A program made the position numbers and the translations under genes. This document shows, piece after piece, positions 1 to 32,495 of a stretch of DNA of 64,000 bases (position 1 is its first letter; each line of letters starts with the position of its first letter). The stretch covers positions 1-64,000 of the forward strand of contig CALKCJ010000015.1 of the NCBI GenBank assembly GCA_938082375.1, written 5' to 3'. Below the pieces are notes generated by a model, which made no database searches, was not told the DNA's origin, and saw nothing but the letters and a program-made list of their open reading frames with translations. The DNA comes from an uncultured Thermomicrobiaceae bacterium. GTDB lineage: Bacteria; Chloroflexota; Chloroflexia; Thermomicrobiales; Thermomicrobiaceae.

Positions 1-1485
1 GGCCTGGACTCCCAGGATGCGCCCGCTCTCCCCGTCGGCCACCATCACCACGCCGCCCTCGGACGCCAGGTCGACGCGCGCCCGGGCGATCGCCTGGGCC
101 GGCACGAAGGCGCTCTCGACGCGGTAGCCCTGTTGCTCTGCCTCGGCTCGCGTCAGCCCGACCGCGGCCACCTGGGGATCGGTGAAGATCACCTCCGGCA
201 CCGTCGAGAGGTCGGCCGGCTCTTCCAGGCCCAGCACCGCGTTCCGCGCGGCGAGTCGCCCCTGGTAGGCAGCCACGTAGACGAACTGCGGCGCGAGGGT
301 GACATCGCCGGCTGCCCAGACCCGGGGGTTAGTCGTGCGTTGTGTCTCGTCCAGCACCGGAGCGCCGCGCTTGTCCAGGGCGACACCGGCGCGCTCCAGG
401 TCGAGCGCGTCGGTATTCGGCCGGCGGCCGGCTGCCACGAGGATCTGCTCAACCTCGAGCGCCTCCTCGCGCCCATTCCGGAGTACCACCAGCCGACGGC
501 CCTGCCGCGTGCGCTCGACCCGCAGGATCCGTGTCCCGGTCACCACGGTCGTCCCCAGCCGGTCGAGGGCCGCACCCATCGCCTCGGCCACCTCGGGCTC
601 GTAGTCGGACAGCAGGCGCGGCCGGCGCTGCAGGAGCGTGACCTCGCTGCCCAGCGAGCGGAAGGCCTGCCCGAGTTCCAGCGCCACGTAGCCGGCCCCG
701 ATGACGCCGAGCGAGCTCGGCAACCGATCCAGCTCCATGGCGCTCGTGCTCGTCAGGTAGCCAGCCTCTTCGAGCCCCGGGATCGCCGGTACAGTTGGTC
801 GAGCCCCGGTAGCGATCAGGAAGGCGCGCGCCCGCACCACCCGATCACCCACCGCCACAGTGTCGTGACCGGCAAACCGGGCGCGGCCACGGATCAGCTC
901 CCAGCCGTAGTACTCGATCAACTCCTCGTACTTTTCGCGCCGCAGCTCGCCGGACAGCTCGCGCTTCTGGGCAACCAACCGATCGAACTCCACCCCGAGC
1001 GCCGTCGTTTGCACGCCGGCATAGCCATGGTGACCTGCCTCGTGGTAGACCTCCGCGGCCCGAAGCAGGAACTTGCTCGGCACGCAACCCACGTTGACAC
1101 ACGTGCCGCCGATCGTGCCCTCTTCGATCATGATGACGCGCGCGCCGAGCCCGGTGGCCGTAATCGCCGCGCTGAACGCCGCTGACCCGCCGCCGAGGAT
1201 GACGAGGTCAGCGTCCACCCCAGCGGTGGAGAACACGACCGGCGCCGGCCCCGGCTCTTGCACCTCGGTGATCTGACCCGGGGTATACCCGGCGGCCTGC
1301 ACCGCGTGCTGCAGTGCCGAGAGATCGACCTCATCGGAGACGGTCAAGGTCGCCTCACCGCGTCTCCAGTCGGCCCGCACGCCTCGTGCGCCCTCAGCCT
1401 GCAGTGCCCGCTCTATCGTGACCTCGCAATGCGCGCAGGTCATGCCAGCGATAGTCATCCGATAGGCTCGCTCGCCCTTCATCAT
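1..1485 (-). CDS. merA: Mercuric reductase MerA, C-terminus cut by window edge
   Basis: Flavoprotein disulfide reductase that reduces Hg(II) to volatile Hg(0) with NADPH in the cytoplasm. The first 495 residues are present. An N-terminal heavy-metal-associated domain carries GMTCAHC (residues 14-20), followed by a linker, the FAD-binding glycine motif (about 96-102) and the redox site GGTCVNVGCVPSK with Cys129 and Cys134. The NADPH-binding half follows, but the dimerisation domain and the C-terminal cysteine pair lie beyond position 1. Two ATG codons stand in tandem; I take the first at 1485, behind a GGAGGGG ribosome binding site. The HMA domain and the nearby merB separate it from lipoamide dehydrogenase or glutathione reductase. 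Confidence 0.93.
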   Translation of the reverse strand, partial: MMKGERAYRMTIAGMTCAHCEVTIERALQAEGARGVRADWRRGEATLTVSDEVDLSALQHAVQAAGYTPGQITEVQEPGPAPVVFSTAGVDADLVILGGGSAAFSAAITATGLGARVIMIEEGTIGGTCVNVGCVPSKFLLRAAEVYHEAGHHGYAGVQTTALGVEFDRLVAQKRELSGELRREKYEELIEYYGWELIRGRARFAGHDTVAVGDRVVRARAFLIATGARPTVPAIPGLEEAGYLTSTSAMELDRLPSSLGVIGAGYVALELGQAFRSLGSEVTLLQRRPRLLSDYEPEVAEAMGAALDRLGTTVVTGTRILRVERTRQGRRLVVLRNGREEALEVEQILVAAGRRPNTDALDLERAGVALDKRGAPVLDETQRTTNPRVWAAGDVTLAPQFVYVAAYQGRLAARNAVLGLEEPADLSTVPEVIFTDPQVAAVGLTRAEAEQQGYRVESAFVPAQAIARARVDLASEGGVVMVADGESGRILGVQA

Positions 1486-1608
1486 GCCCCTCCGACTAGA
1501 CTAATACCCCCTTCGCGGAGCCAGTACGCTTTCTCCCTCACCAAGTCGGCAGCAGCCTGCTACTCGTGCCTGGTTCAGGCTATTCCTCACAAGCCAGCGC
1601 GCAGCGAG

Positions 1609-2044
1609 TTAGCCGGCCCCTCGCAGGGCAATCGCGACGCCGAGCGCGGCCAGGAGGACCTGCTGCCTGTGCACGAACACGACGTACAGCGGATAAGCTG
1701 CGAGGAGGAAACTCCGATCGAACTGCCCGGAGCGAGCCGAGGACAACGGCCAGCCCGCCGAGCGCCACGTTCACCAGCCGTCCAATCCGGTCGCGGGCCA
1801 GGCGCGCAGCGAGGAGCTCGCCGCGGCTAAGCGCGATCAGGATCGCCGCCTCGTAGCGGATGAGCAGGTGGAAAGTTACAGCCCCGCCGACGGCATAGAG
1901 CGCGAGCGAGAGCCACTAGATGACCAGCCAGCTACAGCAGGCGAGGGCGCTCAGCAACGCGAACCCCACTGCGGCTGCCGCGTCGAGCGGTATCGCCCAG
2001 TGCTGGTACCTCCGGTGGCTCTGGCGGCCGATCGAGGGCGTCAC
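1609..2044 (-). pseudogene. Decayed small membrane protein gene of the mer locus
   Basis: A GTG at 2044 behind AGGGGAG opens a frame that reads a hydrophobic helix ending in CCSWLVI, then hits TAG (1918-1916). The same frame continues with WLSLALYAVGGAVTFHLLI and an arginine-rich amphipathic stretch until about 1745, where the coding sense jumps by one base to a frame ending in SFLLAAYPLYVVFVHRQQ, a last hydrophobic segment and TAA at 1609. Together these make a protein of roughly 145 residues with three or four membrane segments, broken by one stop and one frameshift. It lies between merA and the promoter at 2098-2126, where a mercury transporter would be expected, but I do not recognise the family. 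Sequence error is the alternative. Confidence 0.6.
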
Positions 2045-2097
2045 CTGCGCGGCTCCCCTGCGTTCCTGCAGCGCGCCTCGCCGATTTGTCGCCCTTC

Positions 2098-2126
2098 ATA
2101 TTCTCATATCCGTATATCATTGTCAA
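2098..2126 (-). promoter_or_regulatory. Promoter for the merA transcription unit
   Basis: On the minus strand a perfect -35 TTGACA (2126-2121) is followed after 17 bp by GAATAT (2103-2098), a weak -10. The spacer and -10 are AT-rich with repeated ATAT motifs, which stands out in GC-rich DNA and could be a metalloregulator site. It lies about 50 bp before the GTG at 2044 and would drive the decayed membrane gene and merA. No merR-like regulator is in the window. Confidence 0.5.
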
Positions 2127-2590
2127 GAGCGATCACAGCTGAGCGCTCGCCAGAAATGGGGAGAAGGCGAGAATCGCTCAGTGCGATCGAACCCTTGAAT
2201 TGTGAGCGACAGGAATGATGCACTCATGGGGGCTCGCCTTGGTGGCTAGTCCTAGGCTCAGGAGCCAAGTCGCCGGCAGACCCCTGGAAAGTACGGGGTG
2301 AATAACTCTTCGACCCTACCTTTTGCTTTTCCCCCATCAGCACGGGGCAGAAGCCACGCGCAAGCTGTGCGGACACCGGCGCCAGCGAGAGCAGCTCTCG
2401 CTCGGAGACCAGTCCTGGCACCGAGCACCACGCTGGAGGACACATCGGAAACGGCGTATACTTCGGCCGCAGCTCATGCTCGCGGCTAGCGGCGCTCCTC
2501 TCCGGCACTCCCCTGGGCCATGCGCCCGGCCACGCGGCTGCGGGCGTCGCGGAGTGGTAGCGTCCAGGGCTCGAACGGAAGGGGGACGAC
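2127..2590. other. Intergenic region between merA unit and merB
   Basis: About 460 bp upstream of merB without a convincing coding frame. A possible -10 TATACT lies at about 2456 on the plus strand, without a good -35. Frames on both strands here give low-complexity, arginine- and proline-rich translations typical of non-coding GC-rich DNA. Confidence 0.4.
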
Positions 2591-3226
2591 ATGACGCATG
2601 CGGATCCCGGCGCTCAGGGCGCGCTCGCGCAGCGTTGGCTGGCCTGCGCCGCCCAGCAACGCCAGACGGTTGAATACCGGCTGACCTGCCTCGCGTTCGA
2701 AGCAATCGCGGCCGGGCAGCCCCTGCCGCTCGCCAACGCGCAGGCGGCGCTCGGTGTGACGCGTGAGGACGTCCGAGGGTTCATCGAGCGCATGACCAGG
2801 CAGGGACGTCTCACGCTCGACGAGCGCGGGGAAGCCATCGTAGCAGCCGGCGGGCTCTCGCTGATCCCGTCCAGGCACCGCCTGCTGCTTGACAGCAGGC
2901 AGCTCTACACCTGGTGCGCGCTGGATGCGGTGGGCATTCCGGCCGGACTAGGGGCAGATGCCCGCGTCGAGAGTCACTATGCTGCCTGCGGGTCGCCGGT
3001 CTGGCTGGAGATTGAGGCCGGCGAGCTCCGGGGCGCTTCCCACCCCGACCTCTCGCTCTCGCTCGTCGCACCCGACCTCAGCCGATCGCTGCGCGATGGG
3101 ATCTGCACGGAGATCGGCTTCTACTGCTGCCGGGGAGCGAACCAGACGATCCCGAACGACTTCGTTTCGCTGGCGGACGCTGTGAAGCTCGGGCGCGAGC
3201 TGTTCAGGCATGGCCCACCGATCTGA
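2591..3226 (+). CDS. merB: Alkylmercury (organomercurial) lyase MerB
   Basis: Cleaves the carbon-mercury bond of organomercurials, giving Hg(II) for MerA. The protein has 211 residues, the usual MerB size. Residues about 15-90 look like the winged-helix N-terminal domain. The catalytic domain follows with TWCALD, giving Cys109 and Asp112 in the positions of the known Cys96 and Asp99, and GICTEIGFY, where Cys172 matches the known Cys159. The Cys-Asp-Cys triad is therefore complete. The ATG at 2591 has GGAAGGGGG upstream. It is transcribed away from merA, so the locus gives broad-spectrum resistance although the two genes are not in one operon. Confidence 0.93.
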   Translation: MTHADPGAQGALAQRWLACAAQQRQTVEYRLTCLAFEAIAAGQPLPLANAQAALGVTREDVRGFIERMTRQGRLTLDERGEAIVAAGGLSLIPSRHRLLLDSRQLYTWCALDAVGIPAGLGADARVESHYAACGSPVWLEIEAGELRGASHPDLSLSLVAPDLSRSLRDGICTEIGFYCCRGANQTIPNDFVSLADAVKLGRELFRHGPPI

Positions 3227-3235
3227 GCTCGCCCC

Positions 3236-3475
3236 CTATCCCAGCCGGAAAAGCGGGCCACGCTCGTCGGCCCGCTCGAACACGACGCGCGCACCTACTG
3301 AAAGCGGCCGTTCCTGCCACCCCTCGACCCGCCCGAGCAGACGCTCGCCGTCGCCTGTCTCGATTACTGCCAGCGCGTAGGGGGCCAGGTCGGCGAACTC
3401 CGGCGTGGGGATATAGATGACGGTGTAGCTAACCACCGTGCCGGTCGCCCCTGGCGCAAGCGGCACCGTCGCCAT
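3236..3475 (-). CDS. DUF35 OB-fold protein, thiolase partner
   Basis: A 79-residue OB-fold protein of the DUF35 type, which pairs with SCP-x-like thiolases in acyl-CoA and sterol metabolism. The pattern GTVVSYTVIYIPTPEF followed by PYALAVIETGDGERLLG is typical of the OB core. The usual N-terminal zinc ribbon is missing, so this is a short form. The ATG at 3475 overlaps the thiolase stop (TGATG), which implies translational coupling. A GTG three bases upstream could also serve. I infer that it forms a complex with the thiolase. Confidence 0.82.
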   Translation of the reverse strand: MATVPLAPGATGTVVSYTVIYIPTPEFADLAPYALAVIETGDGERLLGRVEGWQERPLSVGARVVFERADERGPLFRLG

Positions 3476-4635
3476 CACGCTGCCCTTCCCAAGATCGTGA
3501 CCACGCAGGTCGCGCCGGAACCGCCGACGTTGTGGGTCAACGCCAGCTCCGCGCCATCGATCTGCCGCTCTCCCGCTTCGCCGCGTAACTGGAAGGTCGC
3601 TTCGACGAGCTGGCCGACGCCGGTCGCACCCACCGGGTGCCCCTTGGCCTTCAACCCGCCGCTGGGGTTGACCGGGATCTGGCCATCGCGACTGGTCGCG
3701 CCAGCCTTGGCCGCTTCCCCGCCTTCACCGGGCTGGAAGAAGCCAAGGTCTTCGGTCGCGATGATCTCGGCGATCGTGAAGCAGTCGTGCACCTCGGCCA
3801 GGCTGATCTCCCGAGGCGACACGCCGGCCATCCGGTAGGCGCGCTGAGCCGCCTGTCGGGCGGCCGGCAGCGTCGTCAGATCGGGCCGACGGTAGAGCGC
3901 CAGCGAGTCAGAGGCCTGCCCGAAGCCGAGCACCCGCACTGCCGGTTTGGCGAAGGTACCAGCAGCGTCGGCGGCGACAAGCAGGATGGCCGCCGCTCCG
4001 TCGCTGATCGGCGAGCAGTCGTACAGGGTCAGCGGATCCGCCACCATCGGGGACTTCGCGATATCCTCCGTCGTGATCGCTTTGTGAAACTGGGCATAGG
4101 GATTGGCCAGCGCATTCGCATGATTCTTAATCGCCACGGCATCGAGGATCTCGCGGCCATAGCCGTACTTGTGCAGGTAGGCGCGAGCCATCAGCGCGTA
4201 GGCGCCAGGGAAAGTCAGGCCAACCTTGCTCTCGTTCTCCCAGTCCGCCGCCTCGGCCAGGATCCGGGTGGTCTCGGCGACAGGCGTAGCCGTCATCTTC
4301 TCGGCGCCCACCACCAGCACTACGTCGTAGAGCCCAGCCGCGATCGCCATCATCCCGCTGACGAACGCAGTGGCTCCCGAGGCACAGGCGTTCTCCACCC
4401 GGGTGCTAGGGACGTGTGACAGCCCCAGCTCCGCGGCGATCAGCGGCGCCACGTGCTCCTGGTGGACGAACGTGCCGGGCGAGTAGCTGCCGAGAAAGAG
4501 CGCCTCGACCTGCGCTAGCTCTGCTCCGGCGTCCTCCAAGGCCGCCCGCGCCGCCTCGACCGCCAGCTCCCGATAGGACAGCTCGCTCTTGCCGAATTTG
4601 GTCTCGGCTGCGCCGACGATCGCTACTTCCCGCAT
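3475..4635 (-). CDS. Thiolase family protein, SCP-x / acetyl-CoA acetyltransferase-like
   Basis: A 386-residue thiolase-fold enzyme expected to condense or cleave acyl-CoA thioesters. The active-site region reads VENACASGA, supplying the nucleophilic cysteine; the C-terminal half has AEVHDCF and the GLKAKGHPVGATG motif with its catalytic histidine. The form with AEVHDCF resembles the SCP-x/lipid-transfer thiolases rather than classical FadA. The start is the ATG at 4635 behind GGGAGGA; the open frame extends upstream but that part is not thiolase-like. It is the first gene of a two-gene unit with the DUF35 protein. The substrate cannot be told from sequence. Confidence 0.9.
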   Translation of the reverse strand: MREVAIVGAAETKFGKSELSYRELAVEAARAALEDAGAELAQVEALFLGSYSPGTFVHQEHVAPLIAAELGLSHVPSTRVENACASGATAFVSGMMAIAAGLYDVVLVVGAEKMTATPVAETTRILAEAADWENESKVGLTFPGAYALMARAYLHKYGYGREILDAVAIKNHANALANPYAQFHKAITTEDIAKSPMVADPLTLYDCSPISDGAAAILLVAADAAGTFAKPAVRVLGFGQASDSLALYRRPDLTTLPAARQAAQRAYRMAGVSPREISLAEVHDCFTIAEIIATEDLGFFQPGEGGEAAKAGATSRDGQIPVNPSGGLKAKGHPVGATGVGQLVEATFQLRGEAGERQIDGAELALTHNVGGSGATCVVTILGRAA

Positions 4636-4756
4636 CGGAAATCCTCCCGTCGCGCTGGCCCAGTGATGCGAGACCGCCTTCACCAGGCGAACATGTGCAT
4701 GCACAGTATCGCACAGAGGGTCATCCCGGCCCCACCGAGCGCCAAGCGCTCCGCTC

Positions 4757-5320
4757 TTACTCCTCGGCTCGCCGTCTTGGCCGGTAGAAGCCGTGCGGCT
4801 CGATATCGAGCACGCGGTTGAAGCGCGCCCGGTAGTTCTCCCAGGCACAGATGGCCGCCAACTCGACGATCTGCGCCTCCGTGAAGTGGCGCCGTAGTCG
4901 GCCGAACAGCTCGTCATCCACCGCAGTGGGCGTGGCCGTTACGCGCTCTGCCAGCTCCAGAGCCACCCGCTCCCCCTCGCTCAGGGACGGCAGTTCCTGC
5001 CAGCACCCATCGCGCACTGCGAGGATAACCTCGTCGGCGATCCCCAGTTCGCTGCCGCCGGCAGCGTGCAGATCCTGTCAGAAGCCGCAGCCGACGATGG
5101 CGGCTACCCGCAGGTTGAGGAGCGCGCTCAAGCGAGGCTGAATCCGGCCCGAGCGCGTCAGTTCGCGACTCATCGCGCTCGCGCCGATCGCCACGCGCGG
5201 CGCGTGCGCAAGCTGTCGCGCCGAGTTCAGCACCACGCCATAGCGCTTCCGCTGGGCCTCGACGATCTCCTGCATCTCCGGTGGGATCTCGGAATCAGGA
5301 ACACCTGGAAGGCGGGCCAC
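4757..5320 (-). CDS. AhpD / carboxymuconolactone decarboxylase-like protein with in-frame UGA (candidate selenoprotein)
   Basis: Read through one TGA (5080-5078), this is a single protein of 187 residues with the normal family length. GTG at 5320 follows GAGGGGGA. Residues 1-80 and 82-187 are in the same frame and both match the AhpD/CMD family. The active site reads Cys78-Gly-Phe-stop81-Gln-Asp-Leu-His85. The family pattern is CxxCxxxH, so UGA replaces exactly the second redox cysteine and keeps the histidine four residues on. The family members are peroxidase-linked thiol oxidoreductases. The C-terminal half has FTEAQIVELAAICAWENYRA, as expected. The glutamate usually found before the first cysteine is alanine here. 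Either UGA encodes selenocysteine or this is a point-mutated pseudogene; the hairpin after the UGA favours selenocysteine. No sel genes are in the window. Confidence 0.75.
5050..5066 (-). promoter_or_regulatory. SECIS-like hairpin after the UGA codon
   Basis: In the mRNA, exactly 11 nt after the UGA, CGCUGCC and GGCAGCG form a perfect 7-bp stem closed by a GGC loop, 17 nt in total. The E. coli fdhF upper SECIS stem-loop is also about 17 nt, begins 11 nt after its UGA and has a loop starting with GG. The bulged U of fdhF is absent. The region also encodes the family-typical HAAGGSEL, so GC-rich coding sequence could produce the pairing by chance. Confidence 0.5.
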
Positions 5321-5429
5321 CGTTCGTCCCCCTCACGGAGCGATCAGCCATGACTCATACCAGCGCTGGCGAACGCAGCATCGTCGCCAGTATCTCATAG
5401 TTTTCCCAAGGGAGTGGAACCGTTCTAGC

Positions 5430-5576
5430 GTGACTCGCGAGCTTCGCGACCACGGGCACCTCCTCTTCACCATCCCCTTCGAGGATGAGGTGATGGTGGC
5501 AGAACGTGGTTGGCTCTCAGTCCTCAGCCTCGCGGAGCTGGCGGATGTGATCCACGAGGAGCTCACTCAGCGGTAA
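5430..5576 (+). CDS. Possible small protein, partly antisense to the SCO gene end
   Basis: A GTG frame of 48 codons reads VTRELRDHGHLLFTIPFEDE and continues to LTQR before TAA. Codon third positions are mostly G or C and the translation looks protein-like; the frame is open for at least 90 bp further upstream without a canonical start. Its last 60 bp lie antisense to the SCO C-terminus, so it may be a mirror-frame artefact. No ribosome binding site is obvious and the family is not recognised. Confidence 0.2.
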   Translation: MTRELRDHGHLLFTIPFEDEVMVAERGWLSVLSLAELADVIHEELTQR

Positions 5577-6182
5577 CCCTGACCACCGCTCATCCTCGAG
5601 CGGCGTCGAGAGGTAACGCCGCAGCCGCCCGGGTCGACCAGGAAAACCCCAGGAGTATGGGTCACGTCGCCGTCGCTGCCAACGCTTACTTCCACCCAGT
5701 ATGCCTGCCAGACCGCGCGCAGCTCGTGCTCCTCGCCGGTGAGAAAATACCAGTTGGGCATGCTCTCCAGACCCCAGCTCCGGGTAGCTACGGCTACATC
5801 GCGCACCGCAGTGGCTCGGGGGTTCGCGTTCACTGCGACGAAGACGACGCCATCCGCTCCCTTGCCGAGAGCCTGCTGAGCTCGCCGCAGATGCTGTACC
5901 GTCAACGGGCACACATCCTCACAATGCGGGTCGAGGAACGAGAGGACGACGATCCGTCCGCGGAAATCGGAGAGCTGCACCGGCTCGCCACGTTGATCCA
6001 CGAGTTGAACGTTGGGCGCCCGGCCATCAAACGCCACCCCCCGTGTATGTCTGCGAACCGGCGGATGTCACCGGTTCGCTTCCGCGGATCACCCGGCTGA
6101 GCGCCAGAGCCAGCGCCAGCGAGATCGCGAGCCCTGAGACCAACCCGATCGCGAGCAAGATCCAGTGCCGACGCGCGAGCAT
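5517..6182 (-). pseudogene. SCO1/SenC copper chaperone, broken by two frameshifts
   Basis: SCO proteins are membrane-anchored thioredoxin-fold copper chaperones for cytochrome oxidase. The ATG at 6182 begins an anchor (LLAIGLVSGLAISLALALAL). The frame then stops at TGA (6029-6027), but the next frame, from GTG 6037, continues straight into the SCO domain: NVQLVDQRGEPVQLSDF, the copper site CEDVC and THTPGVFLVDP with the copper-binding histidine. Near 5620 a second one-base break moves the C-terminus (RLRRYLSTP to REAED, stop at 5517) to another frame. The breaks sit at GGGGGG and CCCGGG runs. It may be a decayed gene, a gene split into anchor and soluble parts, or a site of sequence error. 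It is last in the BlaI/M56 operon. Confidence 0.7.
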
Positions 6183-6223
6183 AGCGCTCTGGCCATCCCC
6201 TTCCGACACCACCGGCGCAGTCT

Positions 6224-7111
6224 TCAGAACGACGGGCAGGCGTCGCAAAGCGGCATCATCAGGAACGGCTGCGCCGCGAGGTGGCCGATCACCGCTCCAA
6301 TGATCACCAGCACGAGGACGCTCACCAGCGCGTCCCGCGCGTCGAACCGGATCGCGACTGGCCGGCCGAGGAGCGCCGCCACTCGTGCCTGATCCGGCGT
6401 CAGGCCAGCCACCCCAGCCAGCGGCGGGACGGCCGGCCGCGATCCGGCCACCTTGATCAGCGCGCTCGCCAAGACTTCGACGGGTACCTGCTGGAGCGCC
6501 GCGCGATCTGCCGCCAGCTCGATCTCTACCCGGGCACGATCGAGCAGAACCCGGACGACCGGAAACGGTGCCGCCAGTGGCCTAACTAGACCTAGGAAGA
6601 ACAGCCGCAGCGGATCCCAGCGCCGGAGATGATGGACCTCATGTCGCAGCACGGCCTCCACTTCCCGCGGGCTGAGCGCGTTCAGCAGCCCCCGGCTGAC
6701 GTAGACCCGCGGCCGCAGCAGCCCAGCGCAGAAGGCGCAGGCCGCAGCCCCGTCCAGGACCCGCAGCCGCTCGCCGATCCCCACTGCCTCGGCGAGATGC
6801 GACCAGTCCTTGATAGCCAGACCGCCGGGCCGGGTAGATCGCCGGCCGATCCGGTAGAGCCCAGCGAGCTCGCGCAGCAGCGCCACGCCGAGAAACGAGG
6901 ACGAGACGAGCAGGACCAGGGTGATGACGGCAACCACGTACGGTGGGACGTGATGATACCGCCAGTACCCGGCGAGGCGAGCACAGGCGCGCACGTAGGT
7001 CTCCGCCAGCGGGTCCAGGAGGCTCGGGTACCGCGCCACCAGCGCCGCCGCCAGCACGACGACGAGCGAAGCGGTGTACTGCCGAAGCATCCCCTTCACC
7101 TGCTGGCGCAT
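6224..7111 (-). CDS. M56 family membrane metallopeptidase (BlaR1-like)
   Basis: A 295-residue integral membrane protein with helices at about 12-30, 58-85 and 260-280. The zinc protease motif HEVHH lies near residue 158, with a downstream acidic ELAAD element that probably supplies the third ligand. M56 proteins sense a signal and cleave or inactivate a BlaI-type repressor. It starts 2 bp after the BlaI-like gene stops, so the pair is translationally linked. It lacks the extracellular penicillin-binding domain of true BlaR1, so beta-lactam sensing is unlikely. Given SCO1 in the same operon, copper or envelope stress is a more plausible signal (inference). Confidence 0.85.
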   Translation of the reverse strand: MRQQVKGMLRQYTASLVVVLAAALVARYPSLLDPLAETYVRACARLAGYWRYHHVPPYVVAVITLVLLVSSSFLGVALLRELAGLYRIGRRSTRPGGLAIKDWSHLAEAVGIGERLRVLDGAAACAFCAGLLRPRVYVSRGLLNALSPREVEAVLRHEVHHLRRWDPLRLFFLGLVRPLAAPFPVVRVLLDRARVEIELAADRAALQQVPVEVLASALIKVAGSRPAVPPLAGVAGLTPDQARVAALLGRPVAIRFDARDALVSVLVLVIIGAVIGHLAAQPFLMMPLCDACPSF

Positions 7112-32090: not shown

Positions 32091-32135
32091 CTGAGCTTCG
32101 AGAGATGGCCGTGCACCCTCCGTCGACCACGACTC

Positions 32136-32151
32136 TCCGGCTTGCGCCGGA
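32136..32151 (-). terminator. Small hairpin after the SRP RNA
   Basis: TCCGGC and GCCGGA form a 6-bp stem with a four-base loop just beyond the 3' end of the SRP RNA on the minus strand. GC-rich, no U-tract. Confidence 0.35.
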
Positions 32152-32163
32152 CTCGTTGGCTCC

Positions 32164-32280
32164 GGCCAGGCCTCCCCACGTCACCCAAGGATCACCGCTT
32201 ACGGCTGCTTCCTTCCGGACCTGACCGGGTTCACGGCTCCTCGCCGCGTGGGACCCAACCATCCTCACCACGTGGCCCGG
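32164..32280 (-). ncRNA. ffs: Signal recognition particle 4.5S RNA
   Basis: The minus strand carries the universal SRP domain IV core GGTCAGGTCCGGAAGGAAGC followed by AGCC (about 32230-32205), the Ffh-binding asymmetric loop and GGAA tetraloop. Flanking arms (5' GGGCCACGT, 3' ACGTGGGGAGGCC) pair to close a long hairpin of about 115 nt, the short bacterial form without an Alu domain. Ends are estimated from pairing. Confidence 0.93.
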
Positions 32281-32495
32281 GCAGTCCCACAGAGCCGGAC
32301 CTCGGGAGGGAGTTCAGCCCCGCTGTAGCGGATTGCGGGTACAGGGCACCGCTATCTCCCCGCCTAGCACGGCCATTCCTAAGCATACTCGGCGAGCGCA
32401 CCGCCTGCCAGGTTGGCGTCGAATGCCGGTGAGCGATCGGCTCCATCCAGCGAGCCTGCGCTGCGTCCGCTTACCCCCTGTGCCCGCTGCCGTCG

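Follow-up and report, generated by a model that had tools for sequence, protein, structure and literature searches.

The window, that is, the whole 64,000-nucleotide stretch analysed here from an uncultured, heat-loving Thermomicrobiaceae bacterium related to Thermalbibacter, contains on its minus strand a gene that very probably encodes a full-length selenoprotein with the AhpD/CMD fold. Judging from sequence comparison, the probability that the UGA at codon 81 is decoded as selenocysteine (Sec) is put at about 0.96. Sec had already been proposed at this codon by the initial annotation, and the proposal is strongly supported by the sel genes of the genome, by the pattern of codon 81 among homologues, and by a hairpin that follows the UGA.

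The Gene and Its In-Frame TGA

The gene had been described as a single frame of 187 residues with the TGA at 5080-5078 as its sole interruption, and translation with TGA read as U returned the same coordinates and length. On this translation, the motif given as Cys-Gly-Phe-UGA-Gln-Asp-Leu-His reads C78-G-F-U81-Q-D-L-H85 (CGFUQDLH). The features of the gene are the following.

4757..5320, (-) strand: predicted AhpD/CMD-fold selenoprotein gene, 187 codons plus a TAA stop, GTG start; open frame with one TGA
5078..5080, (-) strand: in-frame TGA, predicted selenocysteine 81, from comparison of codon 81 across homologues
5087..5089, (-) strand: Cys78, which opens the CxxU redox motif; Cys in 64/64 Sec and 64/64 Cys homologues
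5066..5068, (-) strand: His85, equivalent of the AhpD catalytic His (CxxCxxxH), by alignment
5050..5066, (-) strand: bSECIS-like hairpin CGCTGCC-GGC-GGCAGCG, with its apical loop at 5059-5057, 18 nt downstream of the UGA; from register, covariation, and synonymous shuffles
5328..5333, (-) strand: AGGGGG, candidate ribosome-binding site, 7 nt upstream of the GTG start, read from the sequence

The read-through protein matches the Pfam family CMD (PF02627) with E = 7e-8 and 32.8 bits (cut-off 23), and the match spans the TGA; no Pfam family matches the 80-residue N-terminal ORF by itself. In the alignment, the GTG start at 5320 lies opposite the ATG of the Sphaerobacter homologue. By codon usage, which is a rough measure, the TGA at codon 81 ranks second for coding-like usage on both flanks among the 347 in-frame TGAs of the window that have an open frame on both sides.

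Codon 81 among Homologues

Homologues were taken from a scan of 84,980 genomes and from a scan of 400 genomes of the phylum, and they come from Thermalbibacter longus, Sphaerobacter, Rokubacteria, Reyranella and other Alphaproteobacteria, Dehalococcoidia, and many other Chloroflexota. At codon 81, 64 distinct homologues have TGA and another 64 have TGC or TGT, a distribution that chance does not explain; three more have neither, with GAG, GCT, or no alignment at this position. Cys78 is kept in all 128 homologues of the two main groups. The TGA form was found in Thermomicrobia, other Chloroflexota (GTDB), Rokubacteria, and Alphaproteobacteria. The patterns used to search the 84,980 genomes do not permit TGA at codon 81, and the one that spans this position requires Cys, so the TGA result was not built into the search.

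The comparison with relatives that had been suggested as a check gave TGA in the close ones and TGC or TGT in distant ones. The T. longus orthologue, from the same genus as the genome of the window, is 83% identical and the Sphaerobacter homologue 62%; TGA at codon 81 together with Cys78 occurs in relatives at 83%, 62%, and 26-46% identity. A search of plasmids returned distant relatives only, below 60% identity.

These data bear on the possibility that the TGA is an ordinary nonsense mutation or a sequencing error and the gene a pseudogene. Errors or decay do occur in the region, because there is an additional TGA in the T. longus orthologue, described below, and the neighboring gene is apparently split:

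5567-6248, minus strand: SCO1/SenC gene, looks frameshift-split near 6027-6037

However, the same TGA occupies the same codon in 64 distinct homologues of several phyla, it is followed by a conserved and covarying hairpin, and the downstream region is under purifying selection. The dN/dS ratio against T. longus is 0.15 before the UGA and 0.20 after it, and that against Sphaerobacter, for which synonymous sites are near saturation, is 0.23 before and 0.30 after; the values after the UGA indicate that this region is maintained as protein. The initial annotation had regarded a nonsense mutation at exactly this codon as a coincidence, and because the TGA is conserved across phyla, a pseudogene is refuted in practice and has a negligible probability.

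The T. longus orthologue has its second in-frame TGA at codon 107 (L024:3319-3321, also L091), where the window and Sphaerobacter have Trp, and stays conserved downstream of it. This TGA may be a nonsense mutation, a sequencing error, or something else, and the T. longus copy may therefore be damaged or misread. The SCO1/SenC gene of T. longus (L121:8216-8884) is one open frame.

A Hairpin Downstream of the UGA

In the window, the sequence 3' of the UGA is CAGGATCTGCAC-GCTGCC-GGC-GGCAGC. As in bacterial SECIS elements, the hairpin lies just downstream of the UGA and has a G in the apical loop. The search for such an element, which had been recommended, found a bacterial-SECIS-like hairpin after the UGA in all TGA homologues. 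Stem pairing of 5 bp or more in the same register, with the loop about 18-20 nt after the UGA, is present in 63/63 distinct TGA stretches vs 12/65 Cys homologues, and a hairpin whose first two loop bases include a G in 62/63 vs 2/65. The stem sequences vary while the pairing is kept (GCTGCC/GGCAGC, TTCCGTC/GACGGAA, CGCATCC/GGATGCG, CTGCTTT/AAAGCAG, CCTGGGC/GCCCGGG).

Among non-redundant TGA homologues, the hairpin occurs in all 40, against 10.7 of 40 (SD 2.6, maximum 18) in 500 synonymous-codon shuffles, and its frequency elsewhere in the gene is about 25% in the same set. In the 22 ungapped sequences, 93% of the cells are paired, two-sided changes occur at four of the six pairs, and the covariation is 0.319 vs 0.128 in shuffled alignments, a value reached in 0/500 of them. 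Raw folding energy does not set the hairpin apart within the gene, as other GC-rich stretches fold equally strongly, and the argument is therefore based on register, covariation, and the contrast between Sec and Cys homologues instead of on energy. Stretches at -42 and +168 also exceed the synonymous shuffles (z = -4.7 and -3.6, respectively). The Rfam model SECIS_1 (RF00031) has no match in the genome, nor in any control genome.

Selenocysteine Machinery and Genetic Code

Absence of selA, selB, or selC would have refuted Sec; all three are present, along with selD, in the genome to which the window belongs (3.36 Mb, 61 contigs, 99.97% complete). SelA scores 532 bits (cut-off 268), SelD 368 bits (cut-off 125), and SelB 321 bits for its GTPase part and 347 with the C-terminal part (cut-off 242). 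The tRNA-Sec scores 73.5 bits (gathering threshold 47) and is called as Sec, with anticodon tca, by ARAGORN. An in-frame TGA likewise interrupts the selD gene of this genome, in SCAGUAGK, a second sign that UGA may be decoded as Sec in this organism.

SelA is over the cut-off in 16/16 genomes of the first TGA-bearing set. In the phylum set, for which the lists were compared by eye, it is present in every listed TGA-bearing genome that is at least 90% complete; it was not found in four TGA-bearing genomes (G188, G212, G217, and G286), which are incomplete MAGs of 76-86%. The co-occurrence gives mild support, because selA is present in 320 of the 400 phylum genomes (80%).

A different possibility is that the UGA is read as a residue other than Sec, for example because a near-cognate tRNA inserts Trp or Cys, or because the genome is recoded. 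Cysteine misincorporation at Sec UGA codons is known under poor selenium, and the existence of Cys homologues implies that an inserted Cys would probably be functional. Still, UGA ends many other genes of the window, and the hairpin together with a complete set of sel genes is what Sec insertion requires, so that another residue is highly improbable here. A global reassignment of UGA is ruled out, since it is the ordinary stop of 14 of the 29 long ORFs in the window; the code is not globally changed.

For decoding as Sec, SelA and SelD would serve to make Sec-tRNA(UCA), which SelB, bound to the hairpin, would bring to the UGA, and the insertion of Sec would let translation run on to residue 187.

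Fold, Active Site, and Function

The AlphaFold2 model has a mean pLDDT of 92.7 and the all-helical CMD fold, which, with the Pfam score over the gathering cut-off, places the protein in the CMD/AhpD-like superfamily. PDB fold matches reach E = 4e-8, and the best is 2prr (TM 0.86). The ranking starts with the peroxidase-related AhpD-like proteins 2prr, 6k40 (D. radiodurans), and 2oyo (TM 0.84-0.86), followed by the debrominase Bmp8 and PA0269 (2ijc/2o4d), and the sequence profile search agrees with it. 2prr, 6k40, 2oyo, and PA0269 have the same fold and a CxxC at the same place, with TM 0.84-0.86 to the window protein for the full-length ones among them; they differ in using Cys, in an identity of about 20-27%, and in the proton-relay Glu, which is Ala66 in the window protein.

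In M. tuberculosis AhpD, the proposed relay consists of Glu118, Cys130, His132, Cys133, and His137, and the catalytic His is His137, equivalent to His55 of PA0269 (PMC3141380). The AhpD-type site, CxxC/U with a His four residues on, is present as C78, U81, and H85, which correspond to Cys130, Cys133, and His137; position 85 is Asn in many of the clade's other TGA homologues. The relay Glu would lie 12 residues before Cys78, at the position of Ala66, so the textbook AhpD catalysis is not fully preserved. The two proteins have in common the active-site hairpin of two helices with CxxCxxxH, whereas M. tuberculosis AhpD (1gu9, 1knc) is Cys-based with a complete proton relay and matches weakly in overall fold (E about 1, TM 0.44-0.58), with a different topology.

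Cys78 and Sec81 would act as a redox pair where the active-site helix begins, and in this pair the low-pKa selenol would take the role of Cys133 of M. tuberculosis AhpD and reduce either an oxidised partner protein, as an AhpD-type reductant, or peroxides directly. The protein is somewhat more likely than otherwise to be a general thiol/selenol redox enzyme, and a peroxide or a partner disulfide is a guess at its substrate, made from the family.

A job outside AhpD chemistry, which would concern the function only and does not compete with Sec, is rather unlikely. One candidate is reductive dehalogenation, as in the CMD-fold debrominase Bmp8 (6ohi/6ohj), which is among the closest solved structures by both sequence profile and fold, although the peroxidase-related 2prr, 6k40, and 2oyo match slightly better in fold. 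The other is a step with the adjacent thiolase/OB-fold pair, whose genes come right after the selenoprotein gene both in the window and in T. longus, but Sphaerobacter, Rokubacteria, and Reyranella lack this neighborhood. Other features of the window are listed below.

3236-4917, minus strand: genes for a thiolase and an OB-fold (ChsH2-like) protein, immediately after the selenoprotein gene; order absent in Sphaerobacter
2591-3226, plus strand: MerB-like alkylmercury lyase, near the selenoprotein gene
within 1-3226, running off the window start, minus strand: pyridine nucleotide-disulphide oxidoreductase, perhaps MerA-like, near the selenoprotein gene
32109-32372, minus strand: bacterial large SRP RNA (RF01854), 186 bits

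The order SCO1, selenoprotein, thiolase, OB-fold is kept in T. longus only, so no function is drawn from the neighborhood; none of the neighboring genes is shared with Sphaerobacter, Rokubacteria, Reyranella, or the other Chloroflexota looked at, and no neighbor conserved across the clade was found.

Relation to Known Selenoproteins

The precedent invoked for a selenoprotein of the AhpD family in selenoproteome surveys is real (PMC1088965, PMC2398784, PMC13188914). AhpD-like and CMD-like CxxU selenoproteins are established and have been known since 2005 (PMC1088965, PMC2398784, PMC9312934, PMC13188914), and the window protein is a further example of them. The surveys list the families AhpD-like 1 (COG2128) and AhpD-like 2 and CMD-like (pfam02627), mostly from marine metagenomes, and the window protein is likened to them by description. 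Both have the CMD fold, Sec in place of the second Cys of CxxC, and a bacterial SECIS whose small apical loop contains a G (PMC1088965, PMC2398784, PMC13188914).

The nearest curated model is NCBIfam NF053654 (GroundWater_YciW, YciW-related (seleno)protein), with a full-length match at E = 7e-44; its 149.7 bits are far under the 310-bit cut-off, and the window protein is therefore not a member of this equivalog. The model TIGR01926 (peroxidase-related enzyme) gives 42.7 bits, under its cut-off of 81.8. YnjA of E. coli, of the CMD family, is a distant relative, with 34% identity over 95% of the protein.

Exchange of Sec and Cys in the Family

In a tree of the 128 homologues, some deep joins of which are on long branches and unsure, the clade of the window protein has 37 Sec and 3 Cys rows (37/40). 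The Sec/Cys label needs 8 changes on this tree, of which at least 6 are forced by supported branches.

Two other groups have Sec at this codon. A separate Chloroflexota AhpD-like subfamily (L117, L118, L142-L161), with motifs such as NxCxYUxAxHTALA, has TGA at the same codon and a hairpin of its own (such as CTGCTTTGGCAAAGCAG), and keeps the proton-relay Glu and the His. The Dehalococcoidia homologues (L083-L088), with CFTUMSLR, have Sec with Arg replacing His and a GC-rich hairpin, and they form another distinct Sec subfamily, the third, which sits on a long branch.

The relay Glu is present in 53/64 Cys homologues, and it is absent in 37/64 TGA vs 11/64 Cys homologues; this contrast is a lead only, because the separate TGA subfamily keeps Glu and His and because the rows are related. 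It is conceivable, if doubtful, that the mostly-Sec AhpD-like clade, which lies outside any NCBIfam cut-off, is one in which the selenol made the proton relay dispensable, with Glu lost and His often replaced by Asn. If true, the clade would be a natural series of active-site relaxation following the replacement of Cys by Sec.

A gene caller that takes every TGA as a stop would split this gene in two, and the same error is expected in relatives across Chloroflexota (GTDB), Rokubacteria, and Alphaproteobacteria. With at least 6 changes between Sec and Cys, the family provides natural Sec/Cys pairs in which to study the benefit of selenium to an enzyme of the AhpD fold.
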